A stretch of DNA of 35,443 bases from Polyangiaceae bacterium (GTDB taxonomy: Bacteria; Myxococcota_A; Polyangia; Polyangiales; Polyangiaceae): NCBI GenBank assembly GCA_025453595.1, contig JALOQB010000018.1, positions 1 to 35,443 on the forward strand. Reading direction: 5' to 3'. Both the position numbers and the translations under genes were made by a program. The notes under the pieces are model-generated. The model saw nothing but the letters and a program-made list of their open reading frames with translations, was not told the origin of the DNA and made no database searches. Position 1 is the stretch's first letter; every line of letters starts with the position of its first letter. Below, one piece after another: positions 5,895 to 16,867 of the stretch.

Positions 5895-6389
5895 TAAGTA
5901 GAGCTGCGCCTGGTAGCGCCGCTGGCGCTCGCGGAGGGGCAGCAGGCGGGCCACCGGCACGAGGTGTTCGTGCTGCTCGAGAGAGCGAGCGAGGGCCATC
6001 ACGGCGAGGCCACGGCCCTCGTGGGTGCGTGCGCCGCCGTGCCCCTGGTTCTTGACGAACAGCTCGAGGTGGGAGGTACGCGCCGGACCACGTTGAGCCT
6101 TGCTGGAGTCATCGAGGGCGCAGATCTCGACGAGGAACGAGTCGTCGCCGGGGCCAGCGAGCCGCAGCGAGAAGGTGCCGCGGTGGATGGGGGTCACCTC
6201 GGTGACCCGGTAAGCACCGGCCGCAAGCCCGAGGAGCGCGCTGGGAGCAGCGGCTTCAAAGGGATCGCCGGCGGGTGATGGGGCAGGGGCAGGGGGGGTA
6301 GCTTGGGCCGTGCTGGTCACGAGGAGGCCCGGCACCACCAGGCCGAGACCCCCCAGAACAACACGACGAGGAAGATGACTGAAGTCCAT
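5895..6389 (-). CDS. Tat-signal secreted protein of unknown function, ends at TTA
   Basis: Starting at ATG 6389 the N-terminus is MDFSHLPRRVVLGGLGLVVP, a twin-arginine-like signal (PRRVVLGG plus a hydrophobic stretch ending TSTAQA), so the protein is probably exported folded. The mature part (about 130 aa) begins with an Ala/Pro-rich stretch and then has segments such as YRVTEVTPIHRGTFSLRL and SHLELFVKNQGHGG. I do not recognise the family. No TAA, TAG or TGA occurs until 5808, which would overlap the radical SAM gene by 80 nt. An in-frame TTA at 5895-5897 ends the protein after QAQLY at 164 aa, 7 nt before that gene's GTG. I therefore end the CDS at TTA. A second TTA at 6211-6213 is out of frame. 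Confidence 0.72.
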
Positions 6390-7157: not shown

Positions 7158-8309
7158 ATGCGCTGGCGGTTCCCTGACCCATCGGAAGAGCCCGATCGTC
7201 GCCCGGTTGTTGCGGCCATCCAGGCCTTCTGGAGCGACTTCTCCTCTCACCAGCGGGCCCTGACCGAGGCCCTCTCCTCCGGCGAACTCCCCGACACGGG
7301 CTGGCTCACCGCGGGCCTCAAGGCCATCCACCCGGCCCTCTCCTGGGAGCTCGCGGGGCTCGACGACGCCCGCTGGCTGCTCGCCATCTCCGGCGAGGCC
7401 CAGCGCCACCTCGCCCCGCTGATCGAGCGGATCCTCCAGGAGGCCCCCGGCGCCCTCCCCTGGGCCTTCGCGTCGGGCCGACCCCCCAAACCCCTGGCCG
7501 AGGCCTCCGCGTACACCGAGCGCCTCGCGGGCCGCCCCCTCGACGGATGGACCTGCCGCGTCGAGCCCGCCGAGCACCACCTGATCGCGGTCCACTTCGG
7601 CGTCCCTGGCTGCGAGGGCCCCCGGGACCGGGACGCGCACATCGCATCCATGCTCGCCTGCGACGCCCTCCTCGGCAGCGAGCTCTTCGAGCGCTGGGTC
7701 GGCGCCGTGCGTGTCCACCCTGCCGAGGGCTTCGAGGGGGCCCCCCTCGACGGGCTCCGGGCCGGCGTCGAGGCAAGGCGAGACGCCCTCCGGCAAGCCC
7801 TGCCGTCGCGCCCCGTCCACAGCGCCATCCACGACGCCTCCTGGGCCCTCTACAAGTTCAACCCCCGGCGCCGCGAGGACTACAAGCACCGGCTCGATCT
7901 CTTCGTCGGCAAGACCATGTACCCGGCCCTCTGGCAGAGCGCCCACGGCGATATCTCGTTCTACTCCGAGCGCTTCTCTCGCCTCGGCGAGACCTTCGTT
8001 TACCTCAAGCTCGACAACGAACTCGGCTTCGGCGACGGCGGCTTCGAGGACAAGAGCGAGCTGGAAGATGCCCTCGACGAGGCCCTCCAGGAGGCTCGCC
8101 TCGGCTGCGTCATCGGCGGCGGCTCCGGGCTCCGTTACGACTACGTCGACCTCGCCCTCCTCGATGTCCCCGCCGCCGTCGAGATCGTGGGCCGCATCCT
8201 CCGCGAGGGCAAGGCCCCCCGCCGCTGCTGGATGCTCTTCTTCGACGAGCACCTCGCCTCCGAATGGATCGGCTTTCGACCGAAAACACCGCCCCCCCCG
8301 GGGTTCTAA
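7158..8309 (+). CDS. conserved-looking hypothetical cytoplasmic protein
   Basis: Protein of 383 aa with no signal peptide or membrane segment. ATG 7158 (MRWRFPDPSEEPD) is chosen over an upstream in-frame ATG because the latter would lie antisense inside the divergent gene. The sequence reads as a real soluble protein with a Trp/Phe-containing N-terminal helix (AIQAFWSDFSSHQRALTEAL), a middle region (CRVEPAEHHLIAVHFGVPG) and a C-terminal region (GKTMYPALWQSAHGDISFYSERFSRLGETFVYLKLDNELGFGDGGFEDKSELEDALDEAL...). I do not recognise the family. It stops at TAA 8307-8309. On the opposite strand these same three bases are the TTA that ends the convergent FemAB-like gene. Confidence 0.8.
   Translation: MRWRFPDPSEEPDRRPVVAAIQAFWSDFSSHQRALTEALSSGELPDTGWLTAGLKAIHPALSWELAGLDDARWLLAISGEAQRHLAPLIERILQEAPGALPWAFASGRPPKPLAEASAYTERLAGRPLDGWTCRVEPAEHHLIAVHFGVPGCEGPRDRDAHIASMLACDALLGSELFERWVGAVRVHPAEGFEGAPLDGLRAGVEARRDALRQALPSRPVHSAIHDASWALYKFNPRRREDYKHRLDLFVGKTMYPALWQSAHGDISFYSERFSRLGETFVYLKLDNELGFGDGGFEDKSELEDALDEALQEARLGCVIGGGSGLRYDYVDLALLDVPAAVEIVGRILREGKAPRRCWMLFFDEHLASEWIGFRPKTPPPPGF
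8307..8309. other. bidirectional stop: TAA (+) / TTA (-)
   Basis: The same three base pairs are the in-frame TAA stop of the + strand gene and the in-frame TTA that ends the - strand FemAB-like gene. In the standard code no stop is the reverse complement of another stop, so this zero-gap arrangement is only possible if TTA terminates translation. Confidence 0.8.
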
Positions 8310-9437
8310 CCCCTCACTTCGCAGCCCGGCCACCTCCGCCTCCAGCGCCGCCCGCTCCCGCGAGAGGTAATCGCGGATCGCCGCGCCAAAACGCCGGTCC
8401 CGCAGGTGGTGCAGCGACGAGGTCAGCACCGGGTCAAACCCCCGCGGCAGCTTGTGCTCGCCGCCAGCGCCGGGCTCGAACACCTGGACCCCGCGGGCGA
8501 TGCACTGCTCGATCGAGTGGTAGTAGCAGACGTGAAAATGCAGGAAGGGCCGCGGCTCGTCGCAGCCCCAGTAGCGCCCGTAGAGCCGCTCCTCGCTCGC
8601 CACGTTGAAGCAACCCGCGATGGGGCGCCCGCCGTCCCGCGCCAGCACGATGTCCAGGTGCTCCCCCATGCGCTCCCGCACCAGCTCGAAGAAGCGGCGG
8701 TTGAGGTACTGCCTCCCCCAGGGGAAATGCGCCTCCACCCCCTTCACGTAGAAGCGCACCATCGCCTCCAGCACCTCGTCGGTGATCTCGGCGCCGCGGT
8801 AGGTCTCCGTCACCACCCCGCTCTGCTCCACCTCCCGCCGCTCGCGCCGGAGCTGGTGCCGTCGCTTGGCGTTGAACGTCCCCAGGAAATCTTCGTAGCT
8901 CCGGTAGCCCTGGTTGAACCACTGGAATTGCACCCCGCGCCGCCGGTCGTAGCCCGCTTCCTCCAGCAACGCCCCGTCTTCCTCCCCCGGGAAGAGCACG
9001 TGCGCCCCCGATAGCTCCATCTTGTCGCTGGCCACCCGGATCGCCTCCGCCAGCAGCCCCCGGTCCGCGTCCTCCCGCGCCAGCAGCCGCCGCCCGGTCG
9101 CCGGGGTAAAAGGGACCGCCACGATCAGCTTGGGGTAATAATCGACACCGAATCGAGGCGCGGCCTGGGCCCAGGCGTGGTCAAAGACGAATTCGCCCTC
9201 GGTGTGGCCCTTGAGGTAGGCGGGGGCCGCGGCGATCAGGGCGCCGTTCTTGCGGACCAGCAGGTGGCAGGGGCGCCAGCCGGCCTCGGGGCGAACGCAG
9301 CCCGCGTCCTCCAGCGAGCGCAGCCAGGCGTGCTTGACGAAGGGGGTGTCGGTGGGCCCCAGCAGTCCATCCCACTCGTGGGCGGCGACGCTCCGGATGT
9401 CGTCGGTGGTGCTGATCTCGATGCGTTCGCTATCCAT
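8307..9437 (-). CDS. FemAB-like / DUF482 GNAT-fold acyltransferase, ends at TTA
   Basis: Protein of 376 aa from ATG 9437. It matches the 'peptidogalycan biosynthesis/recognition' FemAB-like family (PF04339): an N-terminal FVKHAWLRSLEDAGCV, then GWRPCHLLVR, the central basic motif FNAKRRHQLRRERREVEQ, FYVKGVEAHFPWGRQYLNRRFFE, and the C-terminal HFHVCYYHSIEQCIARGVQVFEPGAGGEHKLPRGF. Relatives usually end shortly after an xRERxxxE helix; here that helix is DYLSRERAALEAEVAGLR. No TAA, TAG or TGA follows in frame until 6966, which would give 823 aa with an antisense tail covering all of the 7158-8309 gene. TTA at 8307-8309 ends it at SEG, the expected place. Four other TTA triplets in the gene are out of frame. 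It is divergent from the radical SAM gene with 18 bp between starts. Confidence 0.86.
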
Positions 9438-9455: not shown

Positions 9456-10742
9456 ATGGTGCAGATTCCTCCGCGTCCACGCCAGCTTCCCATCGCCCCT
9501 GATCCGGGGCCGGCGCGCCGGCACCTGCCGCTCGCGGGCCCGGTGCGCCCCATCGACCGCAAATGGCAGCCCGTGTACGCGGTCTGGGAGATCACGCTGC
9601 GCTGCGACCTCTCCTGCCGGCACTGCGGCTCCCGGGCGGGGCGGGCGCGGCCCGACGAGCTGACGACGGAGCAGGCCCTCGACCTGGTCCGGCAGATGGC
9701 CGAGCTGGGGGTCAAGGAGGTGACGCTGATCGGCGGCGAGGCCTACCTCCGCGACGACTGGACCGAGATCGCCCGCGCGGTGCGCAGCCACGGGATGCAG
9801 TGCGGCATCACCACCGGCGGCCGGTCCTTCACCCCCGAGCGGGCCCGCCAGGCCCGGGAGGCGGGGATCCAGAGCGTCAGCGTCTCGATCGACGGGCTCC
9901 GCGACACCCACGACCGGATCCGCGGCGTCCAGGGCAGCTACGACGCCGCCATGGAGGCCCTCGACAACCTGAAGGCCGCCGGCATCCCGGTCTCCGCCAA
10001 CACCCAGTTCTTCAGCTACAACCTCCACGAGATCCCCGAGGTCCTCGAGCGGCTGATCGAGCGCAAGATCCACTCGTGGCAGGTCCAGATCACCGTCGCC
10101 ATGGGCCGCGCCGTCGACGAGCCCGATCTGCTGCTCCAGCCCCACCAGATGCTCGAGCTGATGCCCCTCCTCGCTCGCCTCAAGCGCCGCGCCGACCAGG
10201 CCCGGGTCCGCATCTGGCCCGGCAACAACATCGGCTACTTTGGCCCCTACGAGACCCTGCTCCGGGGCACGCTGCCGCGAGGACACATGTCCTCCTGCGG
10301 GGCCGGTCGCTCCACCCTCGGCATCGAGGCCAACGGCGACATCAAGGGCTGCCCCTCGCTCCCCACCGCCGATTACGTCGGCGGCAACATCCGCGACCAC
10401 AGCCTCCGCGAGATCTGGGAGCAGACCTCCCCCCTGCGCTTCACCCGCGACCGCACCGTCGATGACCTCTGGGGCTTCTGCCGCTCCTGTTATTACGCCG
10501 ACACCTGCCGCGCCGGGTGTTCCTGGACCTCCCATGTGTTGCTGGGCAAGACCGGCAACAACCCTTACTGCCACCACCGGGCGCTGGAGCTGGTCCGGGA
10601 GGGCAAGCGGGAGCGGGTCGTGCGGGTGGCTCCGGCCCCCGGGGAGCCCTTTGATTACGGGCGCTTCGAGATCATCCTCGAGGACTGGCCGGCGGACGAG
10701 CTGCCCCGGGCCCAGGCCCTGGCCGAGTGCCCCGACGTGTTA
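9456..10742 (+). CDS. radical SAM/SPASM peptide-maturase-like protein, ends at TTA
   Basis: Protein of 428 aa from ATG 9456. The radical SAM cluster is C50-x3-C54-x2-C57 (LRCDLSCRHCGSRAG), followed by TLIGGEAYLRDDW, ITTGGRSF and VSVSIDGLRDTHDRIRG. A C-terminal SPASM region carries auxiliary Cys (CGAGRSTLGIEANGDIKGCPS, then FCRSCYYADTCRAGCSW, then NPYCHHRA). Such proteins oxidatively modify ribosomal peptides or protein side chains; it may belong to the GDL-peptide-associated SPASM group, but no precursor peptide is evident nearby. After the last conserved part (YGRFEIILEDWP) the frame has no standard stop for 2.6 kb and runs into frr. TTA at 10740-10742 ends it after ECPDV, opposite the TAA of the convergent gene. 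All other TTA triplets in the gene are out of frame. Confidence 0.87.
10740..10742. other. bidirectional stop: TTA (+) / TAA (-)
   Basis: The in-frame TTA that ends the + strand radical SAM gene is also, on the - strand, the TAA stop of the dikinase-like lipoprotein gene. It is the second instance in this window of one triplet closing two convergent genes. Confidence 0.8.
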
Positions 10743-12779
10743 GCGTGCCCCTGGTGCGATGACGCGCCCCTGGTCGTCGATCCAGCGGCGCTCCTTGGTC
10801 CACTCGACGTGGTAGGGGCGAGCCTGGACGATGACGACCTCGCGGCGGGGGCCTGCGAGCAGGAATTCGACGTCGGCGGCCTGCCCGGACATGCCCTGCC
10901 AGTCGCCGGTGAACGAGAGGTGGATGGCCCGGAGCGCCTCGGAGAGGCGGCGGATGTCGTCGGGGCCGAGCAGAGGCTTGCCGTTGCTGCGCGAGCTGTT
11001 GGAGAAGCGCTCGACGCCCTGCCCATCCTCGAAGGTGTAGATCATGAGCTGCTCGGGGATCTCGTTGCCCTTGGCGCCGGTCACGCTGCCGCCGGACATC
11101 TGGGCGTTGATGAAGTAGCCCGGCTGGCCCTGGCTGAAGGGGTTCTCGGTGATGGCGACGCCGTTGACGGCGTCATCGTCGACGCTCTCTTGGACGAGGA
11201 TGGCCATGCCGACGGAGGAGGAGTCGATGCGGTACCAGGAGCGCTCCTCGTGGGCGCCGGAGAGCCAGACCGAGGACCAGACCTTGCGGAGGCCGCGGGC
11301 GACGTCCTGGGGGTCGGCGGGGTCGACCCGGGTGGAGCGGTAGAGGCCGGCGCCGTTGAAGCCCGGGAGATCCTCGGCGTTGGTGCTGGAGCGAAGGCGG
11401 ACCTTGCCAGGGGGGAGCACCTCGCGCATGCGGCGCAGCAGGGGCTGGAGGGTCTCCGGAGGGACGTCGGCCTTCTCCATGGCGTCGCGGAGGTCGGCGA
11501 GGCGCTGGGCGCGGACGGAGGCGTCCTGCTGGAAGGTCGGATCCGCGAGGAGATCGCGGATCCGGCGGTCGAAGCCGTGGGCGGCCAGGAAGCGGGCGTA
11601 GTGGTGCATCGGCAGGGCGAAGCCCCGGGGCACGCGGAAGCGGCCGGGGCTGAGCTGGGTCACCAGGCCCAGCTGGGCGGCCTTGGCGCCGACCCGCGGG
11701 ATATCCTTGCGATCGAGCTGGTCGAGGGTGGGGAGCCCGACGTCGGCGTCATCGCGGCGCGGGGTCTGCGCCACGGAGGGGCGCCGCTGGGCCCAGGAGC
11801 GCTCGGCTTCCTGCTGGGAGGCGGGGGCGAGGGTGTGGCCCCGGGCGTCGACGGTGAGCTTGACCAGCTTGCCCTCCAGCGCGGCGATCTCGGGGCGCCG
11901 CGAGGCCCCGCGGAGCGCCATGTTCGGGGTCTTCCGGTTGTGACAGAGGACGTTGATATGGCCCAGCGGCGCCTGGATCTCGTCGGTGATCACGCCGGAG
12001 ACCACCGGGATATCCTCGGGCAGAGCGCCGAGCACCACGATGTCGAAGGGGCGCAGCCGGGAGGGGTCAAAATCCGCCGCCGTGGGCAGGATACGCAGGT
12101 ACCCGAAGGCCTCGCCCAGCTCGAGGGGCTGGTAGGTGATGTTGCCGAAGAGCTCGTGGCTCTCGACCACGGGCAGCAGGGCCCGGGTGCGCGGGTCCTG
12201 CTCGTGGGCCAGGGGGACCGGGCGGTAGCGGAGTTTATCGGCAAAAAATACGGATTTTTGCAGGAGCTTGAAGGCCCGGGCGGTCTCGTTCACGTCGAGC
12301 TCGTCGCCGGCGTAGAGCTCGAAGGCCCAGACCTCGCCGGGGTAACGGGACAGGGTGCCCAGGATGAAGCGGCGGTCCGGGTCGTGGTACTCGCGGCGGT
12401 TGAAGGTGCGCTCGTCGCCCACCGGCGCGCCCCCTCGGGACAGGAACCTGCGGGCGAAGTAGTAATGGATAGGCCAGCGCTCGCTCTGGAGAAAATAGAG
12501 GGAACCGTCGCTGCGATCGAGGATGATCTTCACCACCTCGGTGCCGGACATGACGCTGGTGGCGGGGCGGAACGCGAGGGCATCCCAGACCGCCTGGGAT
12601 GGAATCCCCGGGGCAAAATCGCCATCGCGCCGCGGGGCGACGGAGGCCCCTGGGGAGGGGCCAGGGCCGGGGGGGAGCACGGAGGCGGGCCCGGCCCCCG
12701 CGCAGGAGAGCGCGGCGGCCAGCGACATCAGCAGAACCAGGGGCAGGGAAGCGCGCCTCACCGGGCAATTGTAAAGCAT
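10740..12779 (-). CDS. secreted PEP/pyruvate-binding (dikinase-like) lipoprotein
   Basis: Protein of 679 aa from ATG 12779, chosen because it opens a lipoprotein signal (MLYNCPVRR, then LVLLMSLAAALSC). A His-containing segment near residue 273 (VITDEIQAPLGHINVLCHNRKTPNMAL) resembles the phosphohistidine domain of PEP-utilisers. The C-terminal half carries the PPDK/PEP-synthase ATP-binding domain (VRLRSSTNAEDLPGFNGAG near 460-475; a QARPYH ending near 650). Having the His domain before the ATP domain is the order of plant glucan/phosphoglucan water dikinases rather than of PEP synthase. An exported ATP-dependent dikinase is odd, since the periplasm lacks ATP; it may be a binding protein. It ends at TAA 10740-10742 and is divergent from frr with 36 bp between starts. 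Confidence 0.82.
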   Translation of the reverse strand: MLYNCPVRRASLPLVLLMSLAAALSCAGAGPASVLPPGPGPSPGASVAPRRDGDFAPGIPSQAVWDALAFRPATSVMSGTEVVKIILDRSDGSLYFLQSERWPIHYYFARRFLSRGGAPVGDERTFNRREYHDPDRRFILGTLSRYPGEVWAFELYAGDELDVNETARAFKLLQKSVFFADKLRYRPVPLAHEQDPRTRALLPVVESHELFGNITYQPLELGEAFGYLRILPTAADFDPSRLRPFDIVVLGALPEDIPVVSGVITDEIQAPLGHINVLCHNRKTPNMALRGASRRPEIAALEGKLVKLTVDARGHTLAPASQQEAERSWAQRRPSVAQTPRRDDADVGLPTLDQLDRKDIPRVGAKAAQLGLVTQLSPGRFRVPRGFALPMHHYARFLAAHGFDRRIRDLLADPTFQQDASVRAQRLADLRDAMEKADVPPETLQPLLRRMREVLPPGKVRLRSSTNAEDLPGFNGAGLYRSTRVDPADPQDVARGLRKVWSSVWLSGAHEERSWYRIDSSSVGMAILVQESVDDDAVNGVAITENPFSQGQPGYFINAQMSGGSVTGAKGNEIPEQLMIYTFEDGQGVERFSNSSRSNGKPLLGPDDIRRLSEALRAIHLSFTGDWQGMSGQAADVEFLLAGPRREVVIVQARPYHVEWTKERRWIDDQGRVIAPGAR

Positions 12780-12815
12780 GACCCGGCCGCCGGTGCTAAG
12801 GTCGCAAACGCCGCC

Positions 12816-13382
12816 ATGTCGATGATTGACGACATTCATAAAGACCTCCGCGACTCCATCACCAAGGCCCACGATGCGCTCAAGCGCGACCTGAGCAAGG
12901 TCCGCACGGGCCGCGCCAACGCTGCCATGCTCGATCCGGTGCGGGTAGATTACTACGGCACCCCCACCCCCCTGGCCCAGATGGCCACCGTCTCCACCCC
13001 GGAGCCGCGCCTCATCACCGTCAAACCCTGGGATCGCTCGGTCATGAAGGTGGTCGAGAAGGCGATTCGCGAGGCCGAGCTGGGCCTCAACCCGCAGACC
13101 GACGGTGACCTGATCCGCGTCCCGATCCCGCCCCTCACCGAAGAGCGGCGCAAGGAGATGGTCAAGCTGGCGAAGAAGATCGCGGAGGAAGGCAAGGTCT
13201 CCATCCGCAACGCCCGCCGCGACGCCCTCGAGATGATCGCCAGCCTGGTCAAGGACGGCGACGCCAGCGAAGACGAGGGCGATCGGGCCAAGAAGAAGGC
13301 CGAAGAGATCGTGGTCGATGGGGTCAAGCAGGTCGAGACCCTGCTTGCCAACAAAGAGAAGGATATCCTCGACGTGGGCTGA
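12816..13382 (+). CDS. frr: ribosome recycling factor
   Basis: Protein of 188 aa that, with EF-G, splits post-termination ribosomes. The match is close along the whole length: DIHKDLRDSITKAHDALKRDLSKVRTGRANAAMLDPVRVDYYG, PEPRLITVKPWDRS, AIREAELGLNPQTDGDLIRVPIPPLTEERRKEMVKLAKKIAEEGKVSIRNARRDA. Both a three-helix bundle and the hinge domain are present. ATG 12816 is used; ATG 12822 (MIDDIH) is an equally plausible start two codons on. Its frame is the same as that of the upstream radical SAM gene, and no standard stop separates them; the only in-frame terminator candidate is TTA 10740-10742. No tsf, pyrH or rpsB, the usual frr neighbours, is present here. The stop is TGA. Confidence 0.97.
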   Translation: MSMIDDIHKDLRDSITKAHDALKRDLSKVRTGRANAAMLDPVRVDYYGTPTPLAQMATVSTPEPRLITVKPWDRSVMKVVEKAIREAELGLNPQTDGDLIRVPIPPLTEERRKEMVKLAKKIAEEGKVSIRNARRDALEMIASLVKDGDASEDEGDRAKKKAEEIVVDGVKQVETLLANKEKDILDVG

Positions 13383-15403: not shown

Positions 15404-16867
15404 ATGCGCGTTCACTTTGTCGCGGTCTGTGGCACCGGGATGGGCTCGCTGGCGGGCCTCTTTCGCGAGGCCGGGCACGAGGTCTCGGGCTCCGATAGCG
15501 CCTACGATCCCCCGATGGGGCCGGCGCTGAAATCCTGGGGGGTCCGCTGTCTCGAAGGCTTTGACCCGTCGCACCTCGAACCCCGGCCCGACCTGGTGGT
15601 GATCGGCAACGTGTGCCGCCGCGACAACCCGCTGGCCCGGGCCGCCATCGACGGGGGGCTGCGCTACACGGACATGGCCCACGGGCTGGCCGAGCACATC
15701 CTGGAGGGCCGTTCCCCCCTCGTCGTCGCCGGCACCCACGGCAAGACCACGACCACCGCGATGGCCGCCTGGTTGCTCCACGATACGGGGCGCGAGCCTG
15801 GGTTCCTGGTGGGCGGGCTGCCCAAGAATTTTGAACGCAGCTTCAGCCTCGGGAGCACCCGCCGCAAGCTCCCTGCCTCCGGTGAGACCGTCCTCGGCGT
15901 CCACCGCGCGCCCCCCTTCGTGGTCGAGGGCGACGAGTACGACACCGCCTTCTTCGAGAAGACCCCGAAGTTCTGGCACTACCGCCCCGAGGTCGCCATC
16001 GTCACGTCCGTCGAGCACGATCACGTCGACATCTACGCCAGCGAGGCCGACTACCACGGGGCCTTCGCCGGCTTCCTCCAGCGGGTCCCGCCCCAGGGCC
16101 TCATCGTCGCGTCCGCCGCCGACCCGGCGGTCGTTCGCCTGGTCCGCGAGCATGCACGGGCCCCCGTCGCCTGGTTCGCCCTCCAGGGCGATGACACCGG
16201 CGACATCGCCCCCGAGTGGCTCATCGCCCCCGCCGTCTCCGGCCCCACGGGCCAGAGCTTTGACCTCTTCGTGGGCGGCCAGATGGCCGGACGCTTCGCC
16301 CTCCCGGTCCCCGGGGAGCACAACCTGCGCAACGCCGCCGCCGCCCTCGGCGCCGTCATCCAGGGCCACGGCGTCCCCGTCGACGAGGCCCGGCGCGCCC
16401 TCGCCCGGTTCCAGGGCGTCCGTCGCCGCCAGGACCTCCTCGGCACCCCCCGCGGTGTCTTCGTCTACGACGACTTCGCCCACCACCCCACCGCCGTCGA
16501 GGAGACCCTCCGCGCCATCCGCTCCAGGCACCCCTCCGCCCGCATCCTCGCCGCCTTCGAGCCCCGCAGCGCCACCGCCTGCCGCGCCATGCACCAGCAG
16601 GCTTACGCTCGCGCCTTCCGGGGCGCCCAGCTCGTCATCATCGCCCCCCGGGGCCGCACCAAGGTAGACGGAGACGCCCTCGATCTCGAGCGGCTTGTCC
16701 AGGATCTCCATACATCCGGCCAGGAGGCCAAGGCCCCCCCCTCCCTCGACGCCGTCGTCGACGAGATCGCCGCCTGGGCTCGCCCCGGCGACGTGGTGCT
16801 CCTGATGAGCAACGGCGCCTTCGGCGGCGTCCCTGCCCGCCTCGTCGGGCGCCTCGAAGCCAGCTTA
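15404..16867 (+). CDS. mpl: UDP-MurNAc:L-Ala-gamma-D-Glu-mDAP ligase, ends at TTA
   Basis: Murein-recycling ligase that attaches recovered tripeptide to UDP-MurNAc in the cytoplasm. It has the Mur ligase three-domain layout: an N-terminal Rossmann part (MRVHFVAVCGTGMGSLAGLFREAGHEVSGSD), the ATP loop GTHGKTTTT at 110-118, FVVEGDEYDTAFFEKTPKFWHYRPE typical of Mpl, GEHNLRNA, VYDDFAHHPTAV, FEPRSATACR, and the final VVLLMSNGAFGG. E. coli Mpl ends about 15 residues after this last motif. Here TTA at 16865-16867 ends the protein after RLVGRLEAS at 487 aa. Reading on to TGA 16981 would add 38 unrelated residues across the start of the helicase gene. The TTA shares its A with the ATG of that gene (TTATG). 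A TTA at 16603-16605 is out of frame. Confidence 0.95.

Follow-up and report, generated by a model that had tools for sequence, protein, structure and literature searches.

The stretch of DNA analysed here (the window) is a contig of 35,443 nucleotides (JALOQB010000018.1) from the draft genome of a Polyangiaceae bacterium, hereafter G000. It was compared with a MAG of the same genus (G001) and with two genomes of a sister genus (G071 and G072) found by a family-wide search; the four genomes of this clade are drafts, G000 being 81% and G001 84% complete. From the ATG at 9456 the forward frame was open under translation table 11 to the TGA at 13380–13382 (1,308 codons), passing first through a radical SAM/SPASM gene, then antisense to a PPDK_N gene and finally through the gene for ribosome recycling factor (RRF); a sequence-only reading of this DNA had described the same path, with a dikinase-like gene on the opposite strand. 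Codon 429 of this frame was TTA (10740–10742), the complement of which is the TAA of a minus-strand ORF (10740–12872). The following features were assigned around the site:

9456–10739, + strand: radical SAM/SPASM peptide-maturase-like gene, coding part (428 aa; PF04055 and PF13186)
10740–10742, + strand: TTA as putative stop of the radical SAM gene, identical with the TAA stop of the opposing gene (TGA in G001)
10740–12782 (start approximate), − strand: PPDK_N (dikinase ATP-binding domain) gene with stop TAA 10742–10740 (PF01326)
12816–13382, + strand: separate frr gene for ribosome recycling factor (PF01765/TIGR00496)

The radical SAM gene also matched the NCBIfam models of nif11-class and GDL-motif maturases, below cut-off. 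Its paralogues were found on contigs C75 and C109 of G000 (68% and 58% identical, respectively).

The radical SAM orthologue in G001 (C197:3289–4569) was 89% identical, aligned without gaps across all 1,287 nt and had a TGA at codon 429, the exact counterpart of the TTA in the window. The PPDK-like orthologue (79% identical, on a separate contig) had a TGA at the codon matching the TAA of the window and adjoined a stand-alone frr, the open frame of which was only 193 aa. The two orthologues, lying on different contigs, ended exactly where the window genes meet. Since both end at matching codons, the radical SAM and PPDK-like genes of the window are inferred by homology to end on the same 3 bp, and the coincidence of the two ends is well beyond chance. 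The sequence-only reading had taken this TTA for the end of the radical SAM protein and the same base pairs for the TAA of the opposing gene; both proposals were supported by the G001 orthologues, and comparison of the C-terminus with that of the orthologue revealed no conserved sequence past 10740–10742.

If TTA were leucine here, the radical SAM protein would be extended, or fused through the antisense into RRF, as the open frame under table 11 allows. Such a fusion had already been called implausible, and we consider it virtually inconceivable: the G001 radical SAM orthologue ends at codon 429, the extension is the antisense of a conserved gene, and frr is separate in G001, where its frame of 193 aa means that no fusion to RRF exists. 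A TAG is present at 10741–10743, but in the +1 frame only; it had been regarded as usable only by way of an indel, and an indel placing the frame on it was excluded by the gap-free alignment with G001, which, together with the TGA at codon 429, makes an indel unnecessary and the +1 TAG irrelevant. Thus, a radical SAM protein of 428 aa and a separately made RRF are the inferred products, for which no protein data exist.

The standard code forbids a stop triplet shared by both strands: none of its stops reads as a stop in reverse complement, so one of two genes meeting in this way would overrun. TTA and TAA are reverse complements; therefore, if UUA is a stop, a single site can end two convergent genes. 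At 10740–10742, UUA would be the stop of the radical SAM gene and UAA that of the PPDK-like gene.

The site had been listed as the second shared TAA/TTA site, and this count held: in ~700 kb of G000 only this one and another at 8307–8309 were found. Further TTA ends in the window were assigned as follows:

5895–5897, − strand: candidate TTA stop of an unidentified gene, a weaker case (coding signal before it, none after)
7158–8309, + strand: gene without an assigned family, terminated by the shared TAA (HMM coding segment)
8307–8309, − strand: the other shared site, TTA being the proposed stop of the FemAB-like gene and TAA the stop of the + gene
8310–9437, − strand: FemAB-like gene ending at TTA 8309–8307 (PF04339, E 4e-136; synteny with G001 C197)
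15404–16864, + strand: Mpl (UDP-N-acetylmuramate:tripeptide ligase-like) gene, ending at TTA (TIGR01081)
16865–16867, + strand: putative TTA stop of mpl, the last base of which is also the first of the ATG that opens the next ORF at 16867 (TTATG)

The Pfam FemAB_like match stopped 3 residues short of TTA 8309–8307, and a Pfam search of the + gene at 7158–8309 gave no match. TIGR01081 was matched by Mpl to profile position 447/448, with a score under the family cut-off. For the candidate at 5895–5897, the next standard stop was 87 nt further, and family searches with the gene ending there found nothing. Convergent genes in the window and in the ~700 kb of G000 had ends very close to each other, often 1–12 bp apart.

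Genes of unrelated families also ended at TTA. EF-G and GreA did so in both G000 and G001, and pyruvate kinase (pyk), mpl and a metallophosphoesterase in G000. At the corresponding ends relatives outside the clade had TGA, TAA or TAG (all relatives examined, for EF-G and GreA), and standard stops stood at the same place for pyk, mpl and the phosphoesterase. In Mpl of a relative (G009), TTA occurred as an internal codon, as leucine would be. The family models finished at the TTA (PK 476/476, EF-G 690/691, GreA 156/157, and Mpl as given above), and in HemB of G001 the model reached 324/327 at TTA. In the sister genus rpoN ended at TTA with the RpoN model complete (434/434) and the next standard stop 408 nt further; G000 rpoN ended with TGA at the matching place. 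About five candidate TTA ends were found in the sister genus, where TTA made up 2 of 84,557 core codons.

These ends bear on the view that the stop disappeared at 10740–10742 alone, through mutation or faulty assembly (TGA to TTA, or an indel), and that everything else is chance overlap between convergent genes lying in register at high GC content. In-register antisense frames are indeed long and stop-poor, and several convergent pairs in G000 continue in register through the TGA of the opposing gene (read as TCA). This explanation is nevertheless very unlikely: TTA takes the place of the stop in numerous unrelated genes as well as in orthologues of two separately assembled genomes, and it is ~65-fold enriched at stop-less gene ends genome-wide (~700 kb of G000). 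A rearrangement that removed the stop at a single junction was rejected, as EF-G and GreA share the TTA in two species, and a trivial in-register antisense effect was rejected because it leaves tandem genes and homologous ends unexplained.

The codon statistics were based on ~700 kb of G000, not on the whole genome, and the coding-potential model scored standard stops and TTA as neutral. Within coding sequence TTA occurred in 21 of 193,149 core codons, several of the 21 adjoining stops or falling in poor coding signal; in the same codons the rare CTA, TCA, AGA and ATA were counted 199, 176, 132 and 59 times, respectively. UUG was common inside genes (907 uses). G001, with 62% GC, had 0.29 TTA vs 9.56 CTA per 1000 codons. 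Conserved aligned blocks contained a single TTA per 16,730 codons in G000, lying in poor alignment, and 76 per 129,912 codons in relatives, 63 of them opposite leucine in G000.

At coding-segment ends without a nearby standard stop, an in-frame TTA, counted within 20 codons, was present in 19 of 61 cases vs 0.29 expected; this gives the enrichment cited above. Other rare codons reached ~1–8 times expectation, and no TTA was found at stop-less ends of G020 and G032, two relatives whose genomes each form one contig. With strict ends (n = 12 for TTA), the ratio of end use to core use was 0.71 vs ≤0.023 for 26 other codons, so that TTA exceeded each of these by a factor of 30 or more. Still, TTA accounted for only ~3–10% of gene ends in G000, depending on the filter. 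About two thirds of the stop-less ends had no TTA nearby and probably reflect coding-model errors or long overlaps.

In a simpler count TTA was reached first at 38 ends, 16 of which were preceded by strong coding signal. The base following TTA at these 16 well-supported ends was G in 5, C in 5, T in 4 and A in 2. One could suppose that ribosomes at a hungry TTA slip by +1 into a stop overlapping it (TTAG or TTAA), given that both shared sites of the window read TTAG and a tRNA for TTA was not found, but this is extremely improbable, for 9 of the 16 ends, those followed by C or T, have no overlapping +1 stop, and GreA, Mpl and the phosphoesterase are among the ends lacking one. Slippage at TTAG was accordingly rejected on the varied base after TTA.

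An Rfam search identified 87 tRNAs in G000, with the leucine anticodons GAG, CAA, CAG and UAG; tRNA-Leu(CAA), serving UUG, was thus retained. We failed to find tRNA-Leu(UAA) in the incomplete genomes of G000 (Rfam and an anticodon-arm pattern search) and G001 (pattern search); by the same pattern search the UAA arm was present in nearly all other relatives. As the clade genomes are incomplete drafts, this absence alone is no proof. A possible tRNA-Leu(UAA) fragment on contig C264 was not confirmed by ARAGORN. Contig C300 of G000 (L205, 14096–18119) carried an array of ~30 tRNA genes in 4 kb, resembling a mobile element; ARAGORN called in it a tRNA with anticodon TTA, which would read UAA, without Rfam support. 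In a further relative, G004 (96% complete; L378–L381), no tRNA-Leu(UAA) arm was detected and TTA was very rare, and no TTA stops were found in 80 kb; this genome could represent an intermediate stage or a missed tRNA.

The codon-recognition domain of RF2 in G000 and G001 had SPY instead of SPF, HRF instead of HRL, a three-residue insertion and other changes, none of which was seen in the 28 relatives compared. The changes were common to the four clade genomes and absent from the 26 other family members aligned. The PxT motif of RF1 was normal. SPY is also present in RF2 of some standard-code bacteria, so the tyrosine alone may not suffice. The serine of SPF was kept in the clade, although its numbering was not matched residue by residue to the organellar Ser204; it seems to be the residue through which RF2 of organelles has been proposed to read UUA (PMC12574857).

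The absence of a detectable tRNA-Leu(UAA) and the near-absence of TTA within genes would also be expected if UUA were simply unassigned, that is, if the tRNA had been lost, ribosomes stalled at the codon and rescue systems freed the protein, with no release factor reading UUA. We regard this as unlikely, but it retains some plausibility. Against it, TTA is kept at the ends of EF-G and GreA in two species, which would be costly if it only caused stalling, and the recognition domain of RF2 bears clade-specific changes; an unassigned codon should have no function anywhere, whereas TTA recurs at conserved ends in two species. Three marks of a sense-to-stop change were present: the codon stands where orthologues stop (EF-G, GreA, pyk, mpl, the phosphoesterase and the radical SAM gene; also, judged from its family model, rpoN of the sister genus), it is nearly absent inside coding sequence (G000, G001 and the sister genus), and a release factor has an altered codon-recognition region (RF2 of the four clade genomes).

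We therefore prefer the reading of UUA as a stop, and the genome-wide tests support widening it from a single site to the genetic code of the whole clade. In the genus of G000 and G001, UUA has very likely ceased to encode leucine and become a fourth stop beside UGA, UAG and UAA, with the sister genus probably following the same code. Termination at UUA remains the best reading of evidence confined to the sequences of MAGs, without protein or ribosome data. The codon is probably read by the altered RF2, as inferred from its substitutions. RF2 requires A at the third codon position; with SPY and the neighbouring changes it may accept U at position 2 and still demand A at position 3. UUG would then stay leucine because of this demand, which also fits the use of UUG and UCA inside genes. 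The inferred history would begin with high GC content pushing TTA to near extinction, continue with the loss of the tRNA and the broadening of RF2, and end with the capture of TTA as a stop.

Taken as a whole, a clade of large-genome bacteria with a four-stop code, an RF2 reading UUA, the first sense-to-stop change outside organelles and convergent genes able to share a 3-bp stop is a likely picture. Such changes have so far been reported only from mitochondria and, in 2025, plastids; a case in bacterial genomes of 5–8 Mb means that a very small genome is not a requirement for them. Codon capture at high GC is consistent with it, and the clade RF2 offers a natural variant for the study of UUA reading. 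On this reading, every gene of these genomes that is terminated by TTA is miscalled in the public databases. Screens asking only for the amino acid of a codon miss the sense-to-stop class, so more cases may exist.

Micrococcus luteus, which has unassigned codons, resembles the clade in high GC content and in the loss of a codon and its tRNA; its lost codon is simply unused, whereas TTA is newly used at gene ends in the clade. The labyrinthulean mitochondrial code corresponds to NCBI table 23. In these mitochondria (cited in PMC12574857), UUA is reported to have changed from leucine to stop in connection with RF2-type changes (a modified mtRF2a), as inferred for the clade; the genome is, however, small and mitochondrial, and a Ser204 substitution not seen in the clade is reported. 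In bacteria, the reviewed changes comprise UGA to Trp or Gly and sense-to-sense reassignments (PMC8629427); they are altered bacterial codes like that of the clade, but stop-to-sense or sense-to-sense rather than sense-to-stop, and the method of a large bacterial screen cannot detect new stops, according to its authors (PMC8629427). A search of the open literature, which left out most subscription articles and preprints, yielded no bacterial precedent for a UUA stop. Mitochondria of Pseudoscourfieldia and Marsupiomonadales (PMC12574857, PMC6821328) share a UUA stop and a release factor change with the clade, but their stops are UUR, including UUG, and the modified factor is mtRF1a, of RF1 type, whereas here UUG is common inside genes and the RF1 PxT motif is normal. 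In peDinoflagellate plastids, where UUA/UCA stops were described as the first sense-to-stop change outside mitochondria (PMC12574857), UUA likewise occupies 3′ gene ends at which homologues stop, and the codon-binding region of RF2 is altered. These plastids differ in being organelles that use UCA as a further stop, edit their RNA and have a pRF2 with Ser204 mutated; here a whole bacterial genome is concerned, UCA still encodes serine, and RF2 retains the SPF serine but has F changed to Y and three inserted residues at another place in the domain.
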